Assembly: GCF_000147695.2 (NCBI RefSeq)
Contig: NC_015958.1
Location: 536,501-600,500 of the forward strand
Length of the DNA: 64,000 bases
DNA from: Thermoanaerobacter wiegelii Rt8.B1
Lineage (GTDB): Bacteria > Bacillota > Thermoanaerobacteria > Thermoanaerobacterales > Thermoanaerobacteraceae
Reading direction: 5' to 3'
Each line of letters begins with the position of its first letter. The stretch's first letter is position 1. Position numbers and translations under genes: made by a program. Under the pieces are notes generated by a model that ran no database searches, was not told where the DNA came from, and was given only the letters and a program-made list of their open reading frames with translations. Positions 25,350 to 54,287 of the stretch are shown here, one piece after another.

Positions 25350-25384
25350 TGGTAAAGGTACATTAAATATGTACCTTTACCATT
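25348..25384. terminator. bidirectional terminator between convergent operons
   Basis: Perfect 16-bp inverted repeat (25348-25363 and 25369-25384, 5-nt loop) with core GGTAAAGGTAC. It overlaps the stop codons of both the FAD oxidoreductase gene (+) and panD (-). Confidence 0.88.
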
Positions 25385-25739
25385 AAATTTTATTTATAGG
25401 TTTATTATTTTCATCTAGGAATATTACTTTGGGTTTGTAATTTTTGGCTTCCTCATCATCTATTATTGCGTAAGATATTATGATGATTATATCGCCCGTA
25501 TGACACAGTCTTGCTGCTGCGCCGTTTATGCGTATCTCTCCTGAGCCTCTTTCGCCTTCTATTGCGTAAGTGTCAAATCTTGCACCGGTGTTGATGTTTA
25601 AAACTTGTACTTTTTCATTTGGCAGTATATCAGCAAGTTCCATTAAATTTTTATCAATTGTTATAGAGCCTTGATAATTTAAATTTGTCTCCGTTACAAT
25701 TGCTCTGTGTATTTTTGATTTCATCATAAACCTTTGCAT
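25383..25739 (-). CDS. panD: aspartate 1-decarboxylase
   Basis: Makes beta-alanine from aspartate for pantothenate synthesis; pyruvoyl enzyme made as a proenzyme of 118 residues. The self-cleavage site Gly24-Ser25 lies in NYQGSITID at the canonical position when ATG 25739 is used. Other conserved parts are [10 protein letters not shown] and [12 protein letters not shown]. The ATG overlaps the panC stop (TAATG). An upstream ATG at 25757 in the same frame is inside panC and unlikely. Confidence 0.95.
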
Positions 25740-26590
25740 TATATATTTTCCCCCCACAATAGATTATCTATAAGCCTTGTTGTCCCAATAAAGCAAGCTA
25801 TTGCAATAAGTGCTTTATCTTTTATATAAGTTAAGTCTTCTAATGTATCAGGATGAACGCAGGAGACATATTGGACTTTGCATAAAGGTTCTGAGTTTAA
25901 GACTTCCTCTACTTTTTTTATTATAGTATTGGCATTTCTTTCGCCATTTAAAAGTAATTTTTCGGCTACTTTTAAAGATTTCGAAAGTATTGTGGCGGCT
26001 TTTCTTTCTTCAGGATTTAGATATACGTTTCTTGAGCTCATTGCTAAACCGTCACTTTCCCTTACAATAGGAGCTTTTATTATTTCTACAGGGAAATTTA
26101 AGTCTTCCACCATTTTCTTTATCACTGCAACTTGCTGTGCATCTTTTTGTCCAAAAACCGCTATGTCTGGTGTGAAGATGTTAAAAAGTTTTGCTACTAC
26201 TGTTGTTACACCTTTAAAATGCCCTGGTCTAAAGGCTCCGCAGAGTTTTTCAGTGATTTTATCTACATTTACTGTTGTGAGAAGCTCGGAAGGATACATT
26301 TCCTCAGTAGAAGGAGCAAAAACAAGGTCGCATCCTTCTTTTTCAAGAAGTTTTAAATCTCTTTCTAAATCTCGAGGGTATCTGTCAAAGTCTTCATTAG
26401 GTCCAAACTGAATTGGATTTACAAATATGCTTACAGCTACAAAATCTGAGTGTTTTTTTGCAATTCTTACAAGAGACAAATGGCCTTCATGGAGATATCC
26501 CATTGTAGGTACAAGCCCAATTTTTTTGCCTGATAGTTTTTGTTCTTTAATTACATTTCTTACATCATTAATTTTTTCTGTTACTATCAT
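25739..26590 (-). CDS. panC: pantothenate synthetase
   Basis: ATP-dependent ligation of pantoate and beta-alanine; 283 residues, usual length. The nucleotide-binding [14 protein letters not shown] carries the HxGH signature. Further motifs are [26 protein letters not shown] and the KMSKS-like AMSSRNVYL. Overlaps panB by 4 nt and panD by 1 nt, so the operon is tightly coupled. Confidence 0.96.
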
Positions 26591-27411
26591 TTATTCTCCC
26601 TCTTTTCTAAAGAAAAAGAATGTTCTTCATTTGGAAATAAACCTTGTTGTACTTCTTTAATGTAGGCATTTATGCCCTCTATCATTATTTTTTCAATATC
26701 TGCGTATTGTTTTACAAATTTAGGCCTATGACCTTGTGTTATACCTAACATGTCATGGGTGACGAGGATTTGGCCATCGCAGTAAGGACCTGCTCCTATT
26801 CCAATAGTTGGAACTGAAATATTTTCTGCAATGTCTTTTGCAAGCTCCATTGGGATGCTCTCAAGCACTAGGGCACATATGCCGGCTAGTTCTAATACTT
26901 TTGCATCGTTAAAAATTTTTTTGGCTTTTTCTTTTTCTTTGCCTTGGACTTTATATCCTCCCAATTGATGTACTGATTGAGGAGTAAGTCCGAGATGGCC
27001 TACCACCGGTATTCCTGCATCTACTATGGTTTTGACTATGGAAGCTATTTCTTCTCCGCCCTCCAACTTTACGGCGTGAGCTCCGCCTTCTGCAATAAGC
27101 CTTGCAGCATTTGCCATAGTCTGTTCTTTTGATATGTGATATGACATAAAAGGCATGTCGGCAACTACAAAGGCACGATTTACTGCCCTTGAAACGGCTT
27201 TTGTGTGATGTATCATGTCCTCCATTGTGACAGGTATTGTGCTTTGGTATCCTAAAACCACCATTCCAAGGGAATCTCCTACTAAAATCATGTCAATTCC
27301 GCAATTATCAAGGATTTTAGCTGTGGGGAAGTCATAAGCAGTTAAAGCTACAATCTTTCTTCCTTCTTTCTTAAATTTCCTTAGTGTGAGAGTTGTTACT
27401 TTTTCCTCCAT
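26587..27411 (-). CDS. panB: 3-methyl-2-oxobutanoate (ketopantoate) hydroxymethyltransferase
   Basis: Transfers a hydroxymethyl group from methylene-tetrahydrofolate to 2-ketoisovalerate; first committed step to pantothenate. 274 residues. Motifs include ALTAYDFPTAKILD, MILVGDSLGMVVLGY, the metal-site region VKLEGGEE and the catalytic VPTIGIGAGPYCDGQ. Its start overlaps the 3' end of the reductase-like gene by 41 nt. Confidence 0.96.
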   Translation of the reverse strand: MEEKVTTLTLRKFKKEGRKIVALTAYDFPTAKILDNCGIDMILVGDSLGMVVLGYQSTIPVTMEDMIHHTKAVSRAVNRAFVVADMPFMSYHISKEQTMANAARLIAEGGAHAVKLEGGEEIASIVKTIVDAGIPVVGHLGLTPQSVHQLGGYKVQGKEKEKAKKIFNDAKVLELAGICALVLESIPMELAKDIAENISVPTIGIGAGPYCDGQILVTHDMLGITQGHRPKFVKQYADIEKIMIEGINAYIKEVQQGLFPNEEHSFSLEKRENK

Positions 27412-28261
27412 TTAATATACCCTCCAATTCAAAGTATTTTTCATTGTTAAAACTTCCTTTTTCATAAGCAATCTCAAGAGTTAATTTACCCAAACTTTTA
27501 TAAAGCTCTTCAAGATTTGGATCTTTTATATTTTCAAGATGAAGATTTACAGTGTTTACATCCCCTCTTGCTATAGGACCTGTCAAAGCATCAGTTGTGC
27601 CTTTTTCTTTTATATTTTTTAAAGTTCCCTCCATTAAAGGGATTAAGGCATCAGGATAATTTTCAAAAGGAAAACCTGCTTCTTTTAGAAGAAGCAAACT
27701 AAATTTTGAAAGAGCTACAAGGTAATTTGAGGCTACAACACAAGCAGCATGATAAAGGGGTCTTACTATATTGTTTAAAACTATGTATTTACCTGATATT
27801 TTATTTACAATTTCTTTTCCAATTTCAACTGCTTTTTCATCCCCTTCTAAAGTGAAATAGGATTTTGGGAGAAGTTCTAAAGCTGATGATACAGAGGGAC
27901 ACGTTTGTATAGGATGCATTACCATGATAAAATTATTTTCATCTTTAAGAGGGTTTAAAACTTCTAAATTTAAAGCTCCACTTAAATGAGCAAAAGTTTT
28001 TTCTTTAAGTATTTCCTTGTACTGACTTAAATTATTTACTACTTCTGGTATGCTGTTGTCATTTGTGCTTATTATAATTACATCAGAATTTGTGATGACC
28101 TCTTCATAAGAAGAAAAGACACTGGATTGTGTAAATTCAGCCGATTTTTTGGCTGATTCTAAATTCCTGCTTAAAAAACCTGAAATATTAATACCATTTT
28201 GGGATAACAAAAAAGCGAGGCTTGTTCCTACAACGCCAGCCCCGACAAATCCAATTTTCAA
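27371..28261 (-). CDS. Rossmann/DUF2520 protein, probable ketopantoate reductase (PanG-like)
   Basis: First gene of the pantothenate operon, 296 residues. The N-terminal Rossmann motif GFVGAGVVGTSLAFLLS binds NAD(P); the C-terminal DUF2520 helical domain includes PLYHAACVVASNYLVAL and LTGPIARGDVNTV. No classical PanE is seen here, and ketopantoate reduction is the missing step between PanB and PanC. PanG, an alternative ketopantoate reductase described from Francisella and Enterococcus, has this type of architecture as far as I recall. Function by context: good; exact orthology to PanG: moderate. Confidence 0.75.
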   Translation of the reverse strand: MKIGFVGAGVVGTSLAFLLSQNGINISGFLSRNLESAKKSAEFTQSSVFSSYEEVITNSDVIIISTNDNSIPEVVNNLSQYKEILKEKTFAHLSGALNLEVLNPLKDENNFIMVMHPIQTCPSVSSALELLPKSYFTLEGDEKAVEIGKEIVNKISGKYIVLNNIVRPLYHAACVVASNYLVALSKFSLLLLKEAGFPFENYPDALIPLMEGTLKNIKEKGTTDALTGPIARGDVNTVNLHLENIKDPNLEELYKSLGKLTLEIAYEKGSFNNEKYFELEGILNGGKSNNSHTKEI

Positions 28262-28285: not shown

Positions 28286-28313
28286 ACAAAAAACCTTCCA
28301 CGGATGGGAAGGT
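28286..28313 (-). terminator. leader terminator (attenuator) of the pan operon
   Basis: On the minus strand ACCTTCC/GGAAGGT (7-bp stem, 7-nt loop) is followed by six T, and stands between the leader stems and the RBS of the first pan gene. Confidence 0.85.
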
Positions 28314-28328
28314 AAATCTTCTTTATTT

Positions 28329-28415
28329 CCCGTCCCGGTCTTGTGATCCTGGCGGGGCATATAAGCCCTATTAAGTTTTTATGAAGTGTGTGGTTCTATG
28401 AAGATACCACCACTT
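28329..28415 (-). promoter_or_regulatory. structured leader, candidate pan-motif regulatory RNA
   Basis: Two stem-loops precede the attenuator. Stem 1 (28384-28415) has arms AAGTG and GTGGT pairing with ACCAC and CACTT, with a single bulged A between them. Stem 2 (28329-28357) has a CCCG/CGGG base with a bulged A at the same relative place. Tandem stems with bulged A upstream of panB-type operons resemble the reported pan RNA motif. The GGGAA after stem 2 can pair with TTCCC of the terminator arm, giving a possible switch. Confidence 0.6.
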
Positions 28416-28417
28416 TT

Positions 28418-28446
28418 AAAATAGCATAATGGGGTTTTGTAGTCAA
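28418..28446 (-). promoter_or_regulatory. promoter of the pan operon
   Basis: Minus-strand TTGACT (28441-28446), 17 nt, TATTTT (28418-28423), directly upstream of the leader stems. Confidence 0.65.
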
Positions 28447-28458
28447 TAAAGACAATTA

Positions 28459-29223
28459 CTATTCTAGCTTTCTTGCAAAAATGAGATAACCTGTGTGACC
28501 TACCATCAGGTCTTCTGGCCTTAACCTCTGAGGGATTAATTTATATTTTCTAAGCATAATTTCACTGACTTCTGAAATATAAAACCCATTTTTTTCAAGT
28601 GCAGCTAAACTTTCAGATACTTGATTTGTAGTGGGAACTAATATTCCTAAGTGTCCTGCAGGTTTTAGTGCTTTTCTTACTTCTTCTAAAACTTCCCATG
28701 GTTTTCTAACATCTAAGAAAAATGCGTCCAAATCTCTTTCTTTGATTCCATCATTTATAGATTTATTGTACATTATGACATTGTCAAATTCCAAAAATTC
28801 GCTGAGATTTTTTTGTGCAAGCTTATAAAATTCCTCTCTTTGTTCATATGTATATACTCTTCCATAAGGTCCCACAGCGCGAGAGAGGTATACAGTGAAA
28901 GCTCCAGAACCTGTTCCTGCTTCACCTACTCTTTTGCCTGGAAAAATGTCAAGGCGCATTGCTATGTAAGCTCCCTCTTTTGGATAGACAATTTGTGTTT
29001 GGCGCTTTAAGGAGTGCATTATGTAGTCAAAAGTATCACAATTAAGTACGTAATATTTTACTCCGTGTACTTCAAAACTATTGCCGGGTTTTATTTGGGA
29101 CAAAAAATCTGTATCAATTTGACCTTTTGGCAGTCCTATTTTAGAGGTAGAGGATAGATCAACTACTTTTTTAAAATTATCTGGCCCTATTATTACTCGT
29201 TTTGTAGTGATTTTTGAATCCAC
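28459..29223 (-). CDS. trmI: tRNA (adenine-N1)-methyltransferase, TrmI type
   Basis: SAM-dependent enzyme that makes m1A58 in the tRNA T-loop, a modification important in thermophiles; 254 residues. A small N-terminal domain is followed by a Rossmann methyltransferase with motif I GEAGTGSGAFTVYLSRAVG. The acidic motif DAFFLDVRKPWEVL and the conserved lead-in RQTQIVYPKEGAYI are family hallmarks. Stands alone on the minus strand upstream of the pan promoter. Confidence 0.92.
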   Translation of the reverse strand: MDSKITTKRVIIGPDNFKKVVDLSSTSKIGLPKGQIDTDFLSQIKPGNSFEVHGVKYYVLNCDTFDYIMHSLKRQTQIVYPKEGAYIAMRLDIFPGKRVGEAGTGSGAFTVYLSRAVGPYGRVYTYEQREEFYKLAQKNLSEFLEFDNVIMYNKSINDGIKERDLDAFFLDVRKPWEVLEEVRKALKPAGHLGILVPTTNQVSESLAALEKNGFYISEVSEIMLRKYKLIPQRLRPEDLMVGHTGYLIFARKLE

Positions 29224-41385: not shown

Positions 41386-41523
41386 GCTCTTATCAAGAGA
41401 GGTGGAGGGAAAGAGCCCGATGAAACCCAGCAACCTGTCCTATAGGACAAGGTGCTAATTCTCTCAGAAGCATGCTTCTGAAAGATGAGGGTATGTGCCT
41501 CTTCTTTTGGAAGGGGTTTTATT
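41386..41523 (+). ncRNA. SAM-I (S-box) riboswitch with terminator
   Basis: The conserved S-box core is plain: CTCTTATCAAGAGAGGTGGA at 41387, the GATGAAACCCAGCAACC segment, AAGGTGCTAATTC and GATGAGG. A terminator stem (CCTCTTC with GAAGGGG, 41499-41515) and T run follow, so SAM binding stops transcription before metK. Established mechanism for this class. Confidence 0.96.
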
Positions 41524-50948: not shown

Positions 50949-52131
50949 ATGATTATCAACCACAACTTAAGCGCGTTAAACGCATGGAGAGCACTTTCAA
51001 TTAATACTACCAACACACAAAAAGTGTTAGAAAAACTTTCATCAGGTTATAGAATCAACAGAGCTGGTGACGACGCAGCAGGCCTTGCAATTTCAGAAAA
51101 AATGAGAGCACAAATAGCTGGTTTGAATCAAGCTCAAAGGAACGCTCAAGATGGTATATCACTCATTCAAACAGCGGAAGGTGCATTAACTGAAACTCAT
51201 GCAATACTTCAAAGAATGAGAGAACTTGTTGTACAGGCAGGTAACTTGGGTACCAATCAGAGCGAGGATTTACAGGCAATTCAAGACGAAATAAATCGTT
51301 TAAATGAAGAAATTACAGGTATTAGCCAGCGTACTCAGTTTAATGGAAAAACGTTACTTAATGGAGATTATTCAACTACAGCATTGGTATTCCAAATAGG
51401 TGCTAATCAAGGACAACAAATGAGTTTAACAATTGGTGCAATGGATGCTAGTACATTAGGAGTGGAAGGCATATCCGTAGCAACTTTCTCAACTTCTGCG
51501 GATATTGATACTGCATTGAGTGCGATTGATAATGCCATTAATACGGTTTCTTCTCAGCGTTCTGCTTTAGGTGCTACACAGAATCGTTTAGAACATACAA
51601 TTAATAACTTAGGTGTAGCTTCAGAAAACTTAACAGCTGCAGAATCCCGTATAAGAGATGTAGACATGGCAAAAGCGATGATGGAATTCACAAAAGACAA
51701 CATACTAAATCAAGCAGCGACAGCAATGCTTGAGGGAATGGCAGCATGAGCCATTTCTCACAGGCGTCCTGAGAAGCAATTCTCAGGAGTATCACCGGGT
51801 GAATTGCTGGAAAAGCCTTAGAGCCCTTTATACCACAGCATAGCCGGAAACGGCAAGTGCGATGGTTTGAAAAATAAAGGGATTGGCCAACCAGCAGCCA
51901 AGCTCCTGTACCGAAAGGTTGGAGAAGGTTCAACGATCAGGACATACCACCTATGGGCATAAAGCCTATGGTGATGAAGTCCGTAGGGTTAAAATATTTA
52001 GCCCGAAGCGCCCGGCTCCTATCAGATGACTGATAGGATGAAGATATGATCTATTCGGTATCCGAAAGGAACCGGCCTGGAGAGCTCAGGCAAATCAATT
52101 ACCACAGACAGTATTGCAATTACTAAGATAA
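50949..52131 (+). CDS. hag: flagellin, split by a group I intron
   Basis: Filament protein. Exon 1 is 50949-51730 and exon 2 is 52083-52131; joined they give 276 residues. The N-terminal D0/D1 region (MIINHNLSALNAWRAL, LSSGYRINRAGDDAAGLAISE) and C-terminal D1 are normal. Without splicing the frame stops at 51749 after AMLEGMAA, losing the last part of D0. Splicing gives MLAQANQLPQTVLQLLR, the standard flagellin end. A compact 276-residue form with almost no D2/D3. Expression is set by sigma-28, CsrA/FliW and splicing. Confidence 0.93.
51731..52082 (+). ncRNA. group I self-splicing intron (ORF-less) in flagellin
   Basis: The four conserved core elements are present. P is AATTGCTGGAAA (51802-51813) and Q is AACCAGCAGCCAAGC (51889-51903), pairing TTGCTGG with CCAGCAG (P4). 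R is GTTCAACGATCAGGACA (51928-51944) and S is AAGATATGATC (52041-52051), pairing GATCA with TGATC (P7). Exon 1 ends in T, the intron ends in G (rule-conforming) and the junction restores the flagellin frame. 352 nt, no ORF. The 5' junction could shift by a base or two. Confidence 0.92.
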
Positions 52132-52135
52132 TTTA

Positions 52136-52156
52136 AAGGGAGGCTTTGCCTCCCTT
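52136..52156 (+). terminator. flagellin terminator hairpin, left copy of the IS1182 target duplication
   Basis: AAGGGAGGC, loop TTT, GCCTCCCTT: perfect 9-bp stem 4 nt after the flagellin stop. The identical 21 bp recur at 54380-54400 beyond the IS, so this hairpin is both the terminator and the duplicated target. Confidence 0.88.
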
Positions 52157-52162
52157 CAGTTT

Positions 52163-52822
52163 GTGTGCGCCCGGCATGGGCGATAGCTAGGCGGTGAAAG
52201 TCCGCTGTGGGCTTGGTAGTGGGAACCACTAGCCGAGAGCAAGGGTGTCCATCGTGAGGTGGAATCTGAAGGAAGCTTAAGGCAAAATCTCGGTCTGATG
52301 AACAAGAACCAGATAAGAGGCTGAATTGGGATGGATGAGTTTGCACATCAAAACAAAGTCCAACACTACCCGAATCCCATACAGTAAATCTGGCAGATAT
52401 ATGAGATGAAAGCAATCGTTCTTACCCGGGGAGGTCTCAAGGATAAGTCATGGAAGTAAAATATGAAGTGACAACCCATACAGTGATGTATGGCTGAACC
52501 TTGAGAAGTCAGCAGAGGTCATAGTACTTATCTAGACATGAATAGATAAGGAAGGACTGAACATTAGGAGGTTTCGGAAATCTTATGAACTCGAGAGATA
52601 TGCGAAGACTGCAGACAACTCAACAAAGAGGCTATCCGTTGGATAGAGAAAGGGAATTTCAAAAGACAACGGAAGTGCATAGTATATCATCGGCGTCAAG
52701 GGATGGAAGAAATGATGTACTAAGAATTGTACATAATTCCTAATGAACCGCCGTATACCGAACGGTACGTACGGTGGTGTGAGAGGACGCTGAATAAAAT
52801 AATTATTCAGCTCCTACTCGAT
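52163..52822 (+). ncRNA. group IIC intron, maturase mostly deleted
   Basis: Starts GTGTGCGCCCGGCATGGGCG and closely follows the group IIC consensus (the Oceanobacillus iheyensis intron type), with blocks such as GAATCTGAAGGAAGC, GGATGAGTTTGCA and TTCTTACCCGGGGAGGTCT. Domain V (about 52744-52780) has arms ACCGCCGTA/TACGGTGGT with the CGC catalytic triad of class IIC. Domain VI has GCTGAATA/TATTCAGC, a bulged branch A in TCCTACTC, and ends CGAT. It sits 6 nt after a terminator hairpin, the usual IIC target. 660 nt; cannot move without a maturase in trans. Confidence 0.95.
52585..52743 (+). pseudogene. remnant of the group II intron maturase/reverse transcriptase
   Basis: A 52-codon frame in domain IV starts MNSRDMRRLQTTQQRGYPLD and continues with KTTEVHSISSASRDGRNDVL, the usual N terminus of IIC intron-encoded proteins. 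It then stops just before domain V. The reverse transcriptase, X and any later domains are missing. An RBS-like AGGAGG lies upstream. Confidence 0.75.
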
Positions 52823-54287
52823 TGACAAAGCGAAATTTAAGCCCCTGTTTTCTTAGTCCCGAAAACAGGGGCTGTATATATCTGGATAAAATTTTCTTTA
52901 AAGTTCCAAATAATGGGTAAAAATTTAAAGTGCCAAAAGGGCTCTTACCCCTCCTCCATAACCATGTTGCCATTTTCTTTAAATTCATGGCAGCAAAAAC
53001 AAGCATCGCTTGCATGGACAATTTTTCTTTCCCTCTTAATGTTGTCCATCGCAAACCATGCTTCTCCTTTAAATCCGCAAACACTCTCTCTATTGTCTCT
53101 TTCCTTCTCTCATATACTTCTTTACAATAAGGTGTATGTCTTAAGTGTTCTGCTTCTTCTACATATCCTTCCCATATGTGCCTGAATATCCTCTTTGTGT
53201 AGTCTTTACTTTGGGTACACTTTTCTCTTAAAGGACAATTCTTGCATTTTTCTGGATTTGATTTGTACTCTCTATATCCTTCTCTATTGGTTGTGACATA
53301 TGTTAGTATTTCATTTTGTGGGCATATGTAACAGTCATAATATTCATCATATACAAACTCATGTTTCTTCATAAAACCGTCTTTTGTTTTTGGTCTTGTG
53401 TATGGCACTGCTGGTATTATTTCTCTATTAAATATTGTCTTTAATATGTACGGATTTTTGTAGCCTGCATCTACTGCTATTGCTTTCGGTTTTCCTATTC
53501 TCTTTTCAACTTCTTCTAATACTTCTTCAAACATTACGCTGTCGTGGACATTTGCAGCTTCAACTTTTACTCCTAATACAAATCCGTTTTTATCGCAGGC
53601 TGTGTGAAAAGAATATGCAAAACATTTTTCTTTTCCATTTTTATTTAACATTCCACTATCTGGGTCTGTTTTGCTTACTTTTACTTCTTTCGTCTTTATT
53701 GTCTTGATTTTCTTTAATGGCTTTTTTCCATGAGCTTCTCTATCTTTGTTTATTTCTTCTTCTAGTTTTTCTTGATAAGTCCTGGCTTCTTGTTCTACTA
53801 TTTCTTTGGTGTATTTCTTTTTGTTGGCACTTGCTTTTACGTGAGTAGAATCTATGAATACTTCCTCTGCATTTACTAACCCATGCCTTATTGCTTCTTC
53901 TAAAATCTTCGTAAATATTTTCTCAAATATGTCTGTCCCTTTGAATCTTCTTATGTAGTTCTGGCTAAATGTTGAAAAATGAGGTATTTCTTCTGTTAGT
54001 CCATACCCTAAAAACCATCTATATGCAACGTTTGTTTTTATTTCTGCTATTGTTCTTCTTATCGACGGTATACCAAAAAGATATTGAATAAATAGTATTT
54101 TTATCAATACTACTGGATCTATGCTTGGTCTGCCGTGATCTTCGGAATATTTGTCTTTTACTAAATCGTATATGAAATTAAAGTCTATAACTCTTTCTAT
54201 CTTTCTTAAAAGGTGATCTTTTGGTACTAATTGATCTATGCTTACAAATTCTATTTGATGTCTTGCATCCTGTTTCTTTGTTAACAT
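52803..54287 (-). CDS. IS1182-family transposase
   Basis: DDE transposase of 494 residues. N-terminal DUF772-type domain (QLVPKDHLLRKIERVID, GRPSIDPVVLIKILFIQYLFGIPS), central catalytic part with IDSTHVKASANKKK and AVDAGYKNPYI, then a zinc-like CYICPQNE...CKNCPLREKC region, and the C-terminal ERVFADLKEKHGLRW with the third acidic residue. The last eight codons and stop lie in intron sequence (domain VI), so the intron altered its natural C terminus; the catalytic core is complete. Confidence 0.93.
   Translation of the reverse strand: MLTKKQDARHQIEFVSIDQLVPKDHLLRKIERVIDFNFIYDLVKDKYSEDHGRPSIDPVVLIKILFIQYLFGIPSIRRTIAEIKTNVAYRWFLGYGLTEEIPHFSTFSQNYIRRFKGTDIFEKIFTKILEEAIRHGLVNAEEVFIDSTHVKASANKKKYTKEIVEQEARTYQEKLEEEINKDREAHGKKPLKKIKTIKTKEVKVSKTDPDSGMLNKNGKEKCFAYSFHTACDKNGFVLGVKVEAANVHDSVMFEEVLEEVEKRIGKPKAIAVDAGYKNPYILKTIFNREIIPAVPYTRPKTKDGFMKKHEFVYDEYYDCYICPQNEILTYVTTNREGYREYKSNPEKCKNCPLREKCTQSKDYTKRIFRHIWEGYVEEAEHLRHTPYCKEVYERRKETIERVFADLKEKHGLRWTTLRGKEKLSMQAMLVFAAMNLKKMATWLWRRGKSPFGTLNFYPLFGTLKKILSRYIQPLFSGLRKQGLKFRFVNRVGAE

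Follow-up and report, generated by a model that had tools for sequence, protein, structure and literature searches.

The pan leader and the operon behind it

The window analyzed here is a stretch of 64,000 nucleotides from Thermoanaerobacter wiegelii Rt8.B1. On its minus strand, a leader of about 150 nt is flanked on one side by a methyltransferase gene (28459-29223) and on the other by an operon of four genes encoding a DUF2520 protein, PanB, PanC and PanD (Table 1). The Rfam pan model (RF01749) matches this leader at 28413-28326 (-) over the whole model length, with 54.9 bits against a gathering cut-off of 36.2, and a search down to E = 1 found no further Rfam family in it. The element belongs to the known pan family and lies before pantothenate genes, upstream of panB, panC and an aspartate decarboxylase gene, as described for RF01749. 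A first-pass annotation made from the sequence alone had proposed both the pan motif and the position before the pantothenate operon. The gene content bears out the latter, and the Rfam score together with strong covariation (see below) bears out the former.

Table 1. Coordinates of the pan leader elements and the operon genes in the window.
Feature	Position	Strand	Evidence
Promoter-like site: TTGACT, 17 nt, TATTTT, TG before the -10 box	28418..28446	-	Consensus scan
Pan hairpin 1 (3 bp + 5 bp + 3 bp)	28386..28413	-	Rfam RF01749, module scan, covariation
Bulged As of hairpin 1	28405 (5' strand), 28389 (3' strand)	-	
Pan hairpin 2, proposed anti-antiterminator	28330..28355	-	Rfam RF01749, module scan, covariation
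Bulged As of hairpin 2	28347 (5' strand), 28333 (3' strand)	-	
Predicted antiterminator, 5' strand GACGGGAA, common to the 3' strand of hairpin 2	28327..28334	-	Duplex analysis of 114 leaders; folds
Predicted antiterminator, 3' strand TTCCCATC, common to the terminator 5' arm and loop	28303..28310	-	Duplex analysis; folds
Intrinsic terminator: hairpin ACCTTCC/GGAAGGT (28313-28293) and T run	28288..28313	-	Terminator scan
First gene, Rossmann-like + DUF2520 protein, TTG start	27371..28261	-	
panB, ketopantoate hydroxymethyltransferase	26587..27411	-	TIGR00222, PF02548
panC, pantoate--beta-alanine ligase	25739..26590	-	TIGR00018, PF02569
panD, aspartate 1-decarboxylase	25383..25757	-	TIGR00223, PF02261

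Judging from its context, the DUF2520 protein of the operon is probably the ketopantoate reductase, and thus likely a non-orthologous PanE. A DUF2520 gene heads many pan-controlled operons, in the place of ketopantoate reductase.

Elsewhere in the window, a SAM riboswitch (S box) is located at 41387-41491 (+, 87.7 bits). In 50949-52822 (+), a flagellin-like ORF extends into a match to group I introns (51746-52074); group II intron pieces (52248-52822) come next, and then a transposase ORF on the opposite strand (52803-54287, -). We read the region 50949-54287 as self-splicing introns, tandem or nested, that lie within or behind a flagellin gene.

Hairpin geometry and covariation

Both pan hairpins have a pair of bulged As, one on each strand, with 5 bp between them. 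The module scan of 156 leaders looked for 3 bp, 5 bp, a 5'-strand bulge, 2-3 bp and a loop, required one 3'-strand bulge at the opposite end of the 5-bp part, and left the identity of the bulged base free. The two bulges turned out to be A in 143 and 148 of the 156 leaders for hairpin 1, and in 147 and 150 for hairpin 2. The two stems postulated initially are thus present, but with two bulged As per hairpin in the module scan instead of one. The hairpins of the window stand in tandem with a linker of 30 nt, the second having a central A.G mismatch within its 5-bp part. Their two-module score of 19.2, compared to 7.1 +/- 1.8 for the null, was reached by none of 1000 dinucleotide shuffles. Across the family, the linker varies between 1 and 57 nt (median 31), and the apical loops (3-14 nt) have no fixed length and differ in sequence.

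When 26 diverse leaders are aligned, 92.4% of the cells are paired versus 77.0% in shuffles, a percentage (but not the covariation) that is inflated by the preselection of these leaders for canonical modules. When the partner is shifted by one column, pairing falls to 40-43%. Lack of covariation had been named beforehand as grounds for abandoning the motif; 18 of the 20 pairs vary on both sides, which none of 500 shuffles equaled.

Position of promoter-like sites and single-hairpin leaders

As had been suggested, the leader is preceded by a promoter-like site of its own. The consensus scan, with two such sites against 2.6 expected, is weak when taken alone and not significant, yet the location of the site is supported by the family. 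In the window the -10 box lies 4 nt before hairpin 1, matching a family-wide preference: among 131 tandem leaders, 78 have a -10 box that ends 2-12 nt upstream of hairpin 1, compared to 20.7 in shuffles.

Among the 78 named loci with enough upstream sequence, 41 have no convincing hairpin 1 at a score threshold of our own, which may have missed a few divergent copies. In 17 of these 41 loci (2.8 expected) a -10 box is found 2-12 nt before hairpin 2, mostly at a spacing of 7-8 nt, and therefore transcription would start at the hairpin itself. The start codon follows the lone hairpin after about 4-6 nt in loci L184, L199, L211, L236 and L246. A single pan hairpin thus seems to suffice, and a lone hairpin placed at +1 offers a minimal construct, which at some loci is separated from the AUG by 4-6 nt.

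Terminator and predicted competing antiterminator

The region holds three terminator-like sites versus 0.4 in shuffles, and the terminator assumed by the first-pass annotation was recovered as a hairpin followed by a T run. Such a terminator occurs within 130 nt in 114 of the 145 leaders having a canonical hairpin 2. The duplex segment tested in these leaders consisted of GACGG, the 3' end of hairpin 2, and the next 12 nt, set against the terminator 5' arm. Complementarity amounts to -10.9 kcal/mol for the leader's own terminator and -8.8 for the terminators of other leaders, with a permutation z of -8.1 in a set thinned to 74 distinct tails, statistics that are inflated by the relatedness of the leaders. 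The duplex extends into hairpin 2 in 111 of the 114 leaders, and the nucleotides behind hairpin 2 taken alone give a weak signal (z -2.4). The hairpin's own strand therefore carries the pairing signal, which makes hairpin 2 and the antiterminator mutually exclusive. The earlier proposal that the terminator 5' arm pairs with the 3' flank of the second stem is correct with respect to the pairing, but not with respect to the flank alone, as the paired segment includes the hairpin strand GACGG.

For the window leader, the rival folds differ by about 1 kcal/mol: hairpin 2 with the terminator yields -37.7 kcal/mol, the forced antiterminator -37.2 and the overall minimum -38.2. Mutually exclusive folds in the expression platform, as expected of a riboswitch, are hence predicted; they are also typical of protein-controlled attenuators and not specific to riboswitches. 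Given that hairpin 2 excludes the antiterminator, its stabilization should cause termination and turn the genes OFF.

A second pan leader before panT-coaX

An order-wide search revealed two pan matches in some relatives, the second one in front of two genes, first that of a PanT-like ECF S component and then coaX. The PanT ortholog of the present genome (G000:C1:2365115-2365645, minus) also has a tandem pan-like leader, as has every inspected PanT ortholog from two families of the order, one of them being that of the window. Hairpin 2 of the panT leader adjoins the Shine-Dalgarno sequence wherever this was measured, and in the window's genus its base deviates from the canonical form. With a purpose-built covariance model, the genome yields two sites and no more, the window leader (59.1 bits) and the panT-coaX leader (42.7 bits, E 3.8e-5); the latter falls below the Rfam cut-off, and the Rfam genome search reports the window site only. 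The putative identity of PanT is based on the coaX neighbor and on similarity to ECF S components whose structures have been solved (4rfs, a pantothenate transporter; E 2e-11). In a further genome, a pan match (L019, G002:C2:53584-53682) precedes what seems to be a second, broken PanT-like gene, with its similarity divided between two short pieces.

The pan regulon across bacteria

Pan matches are present in 159 of 398 Bacillota genomes. In most of the 117 loci examined the leader precedes panB, panC, panD or DUF2520 genes, the DUF2520 label having been assigned by similarity and possibly including other reductases. An uptake gene is present in 20 of the 117, in diverse arrangements: PanT, BirA-PanT-CoaX, BioY-PanT-CoaX, a PanS-like protein with panC-panD, DUF997 with PanF, or an OPT transporter. 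In the case of the latter, a pan leader precedes five of the six orthologs of one family whose upstream sequence is intact, and one genome with this combination (G303) lacks PanB and PanC. The pan-controlled OPT transporter is likely an importer of vitamin B5 or a precursor. Loci of this type are L099, L117, L119 and L167-L172.

A hairpin-2 sequence scan of named genomes returned at least 119 stretches. Among the 80 matches listed are records of Chloroflexota, Dormibacterota, deltaproteobacteria, Methylomirabilis, Nitrospinia and Myxococcales; in these records pan leaders are also located before whole ECF modules with PanT and CoaX, and before ThnT-like S58 peptidase genes in Dehalococcoidia-type operons. 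The peptidase gene comes first in L176, L191, L192, L200, L205, L225, L244, L251 and L254, mostly from Dehalococcoidia, and a role of its product in pantetheine or beta-alanine salvage is possible. An amidohydrolase gene occurs in or near pan-controlled operons as well, either as first gene (L105, L202) or farther downstream (L157, L204, L253).

The original description named only panB, panC and aspartate decarboxylase as pan targets (Weinberg et al., 2010; PMC2864571). Uptake and kinase targets, the form abutting the Shine-Dalgarno sequence and the many single-hairpin leaders go beyond it, and we found no earlier description of the second leader, the uptake branch, the exclusion of early intermediates, the antiterminator statistics or the single-hairpin frequency. 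The regulon predicts salvage functions for vitamin B5, pantetheine or beta-alanine in the OPT transporter, the BioY-like proteins and the S58/ThnT-like hydrolase.

The effector

The regulon narrows the choice of effector, which had comprised the whole pathway, to pantothenate and its products. Pantoate or ketopantoate as the signal would agree with the majority of leaders, which precede panB, panC or DUF2520 genes, and with the leaders before PanS, a family of ketopantoate/pantoate/pantothenate transporters. However, seven pan-bearing genomes with an estimated completeness of 95-100% lack both PanB and PanC, and PanC is missing from ten. The leaders examined in genomes of this kind precede PanT, BirA-PanT-CoaX, BioY-PanT-CoaX or OPT genes. 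Since such auxotrophs keep their pan leaders, the early intermediates are disfavored and we regard them as improbable ligands. From the candidate ligands listed at first, pantoate and ketopantoate thus become unlikely while pantothenate and CoA stay; the effector is probably pantothenate, its phosphorylated forms or CoA.

The BirA-PanT-CoaX and BioY-PanT-CoaX operons could suggest biotin as the signal, yet most targets are panB, panC, panD and DUF2520 genes, and because leaders before panB, panF and panS have no biotin link, we read the biotin genes as passengers. Moreover, PanU of B. subtilis is BioY-like, resembling biotin S components, and imports pantothenate (PMC11487621), so that pan-controlled BioY-like genes may carry pantothenate too. 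A biotin signal is accordingly very improbable.

That the pan ligand is not firmly established, as stated in the first-pass annotation, agrees with the literature searched (subscription journals and preprints lay outside, and a recent identification is possible), in which we found no ligand identification after 2010. Type III pantothenate kinases are not known to undergo feedback inhibition by CoA, and RNA-level control of supply would therefore be sensible.

Proposed mechanism and alternatives

Alongside the computed structure, covariation, exclusive pairing, regulon and presence in auxotrophs, we infer a polarity, a binder and an effector. On balance, we consider it probable, with moderate confidence, that the leader is a transcription attenuator acting as a feedback OFF switch, controlled by a trans-acting factor, likely a protein, that reports a metabolite of the pantothenate/CoA pathway. 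Without effector, the 3' strand of hairpin 2 (GACGGGAA) would pair with the terminator 5' arm (UUCCCAUC), the antiterminator would form and the pan genes would be read. With effector, the factor would clamp hairpin 2 through its two bulged As and keep GACGG away; with GACGG withheld, the terminator would fold and transcription would stop. Hairpin 1, a second site with identical geometry, may strengthen or dimerize the binding. The activity of the factor, most likely a protein, would report pantothenate or a downstream CoA-pathway metabolite according to the logic of PyrR. In the case of panT-coaX, the hairpin abutting the Shine-Dalgarno sequence would block translation under the same signal.

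Protein-mediated attenuation is preferred because an autonomous hairpin of about 27 nt with a free, unconserved loop and only two bulged As fits a protein site more easily, which favors a protein binder over direct metabolite binding. Two candidate proteins were considered. The DUF2520 protein as autoregulator is rejected, since nine pan-bearing genomes do not encode it and neither does the B. subtilis control, although a pan RNA is present there. CoaX as sensor is too widespread to be informative (156 of 159 pan-bearing versus 207 of 239 other Bacillota genomes; Fisher p 4e-5, kinship ignored), and three pan-bearing drafts do not have it. An RNA-acting protein conserved over several phyla would also be unusual, which counts against the proposed mechanism.

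This same wide phylogenetic spread without a known partner protein speaks for a true metabolite riboswitch, in which pantothenate, a phosphorylated precursor or CoA would be bound by one or both pan hairpins themselves, the anti-antiterminator logic staying unchanged and the tandem form being a dimeric or cooperative aptamer comparable to guanidine-II. The exact, repeated geometry and the several expression platforms behind one conserved hairpin, as riboswitches have, point in the same direction, and CoA has been singled out as a gap in the set of riboswitch ligands (PMC9971707). Against it, the conserved part is very small, the loops are free (3-14 nt) and single hairpins seem sufficient, leaving no obvious pocket; we consider this a serious but minority possibility. 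Its boldest form is doubtful; here one hairpin of about 27 nt, with two bulged As as its sole requirement, would itself bind pantothenate or a metabolite of the CoA branch. If true, the hairpin would fill the CoA-pathway gap among riboswitches, and several bacterial phyla would employ this unusually small natural sensor in every route of their vitamin B5 supply. Competition between hairpin 2 and the antiterminator provides an assay that could quickly settle the choice between protein and metabolite. A signal-independent role, i.e., a structured 5' end plus an ordinary terminator for fixed attenuation or mRNA protection, would be in line with the literature searched, where no experimental regulation was found for any pan RNA, and a terminator alone would yield fixed attenuation. 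It is scarcely credible in view of four nearly invariant bulged As, double-sided covariation, conserved mutually exclusive pairing and a pathway-specific distribution over unrelated genes in several phyla.

Comparison with known systems

Since 2010 the pan motif has remained an orphan; in that year it was suggested to be a dimeric protein-binding motif with most, but not all, stems in tandem (Weinberg et al., 2010; PMC2864571). The window leader shares with RF01749 the stems with two bulged As, the tandem order, the position before panB, panC and panD and a score above the cut-off, and shows no difference from it.

In PyrR-controlled pyr attenuators, an anti-antiterminator, an antiterminator and a terminator follow one another in a system of end-product feedback. 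The same order of elements is predicted for the pan leader, where an anti-antiterminator exclusive with the antiterminator is compatible with the sequence. The hairpin and the pathway are different, and PyrR is a protein binder whereas that of pan is postulated. Guanidine-II (mini-ykkC), once thought to be a protein-binding motif, similarly consists of two small similar hairpins and a variable linker, features that pan shares. Yet guanidine-II needs conserved loop sequences that kiss, while the pan loops vary in length (3-14 nt) and sequence, and single pan hairpins exist.
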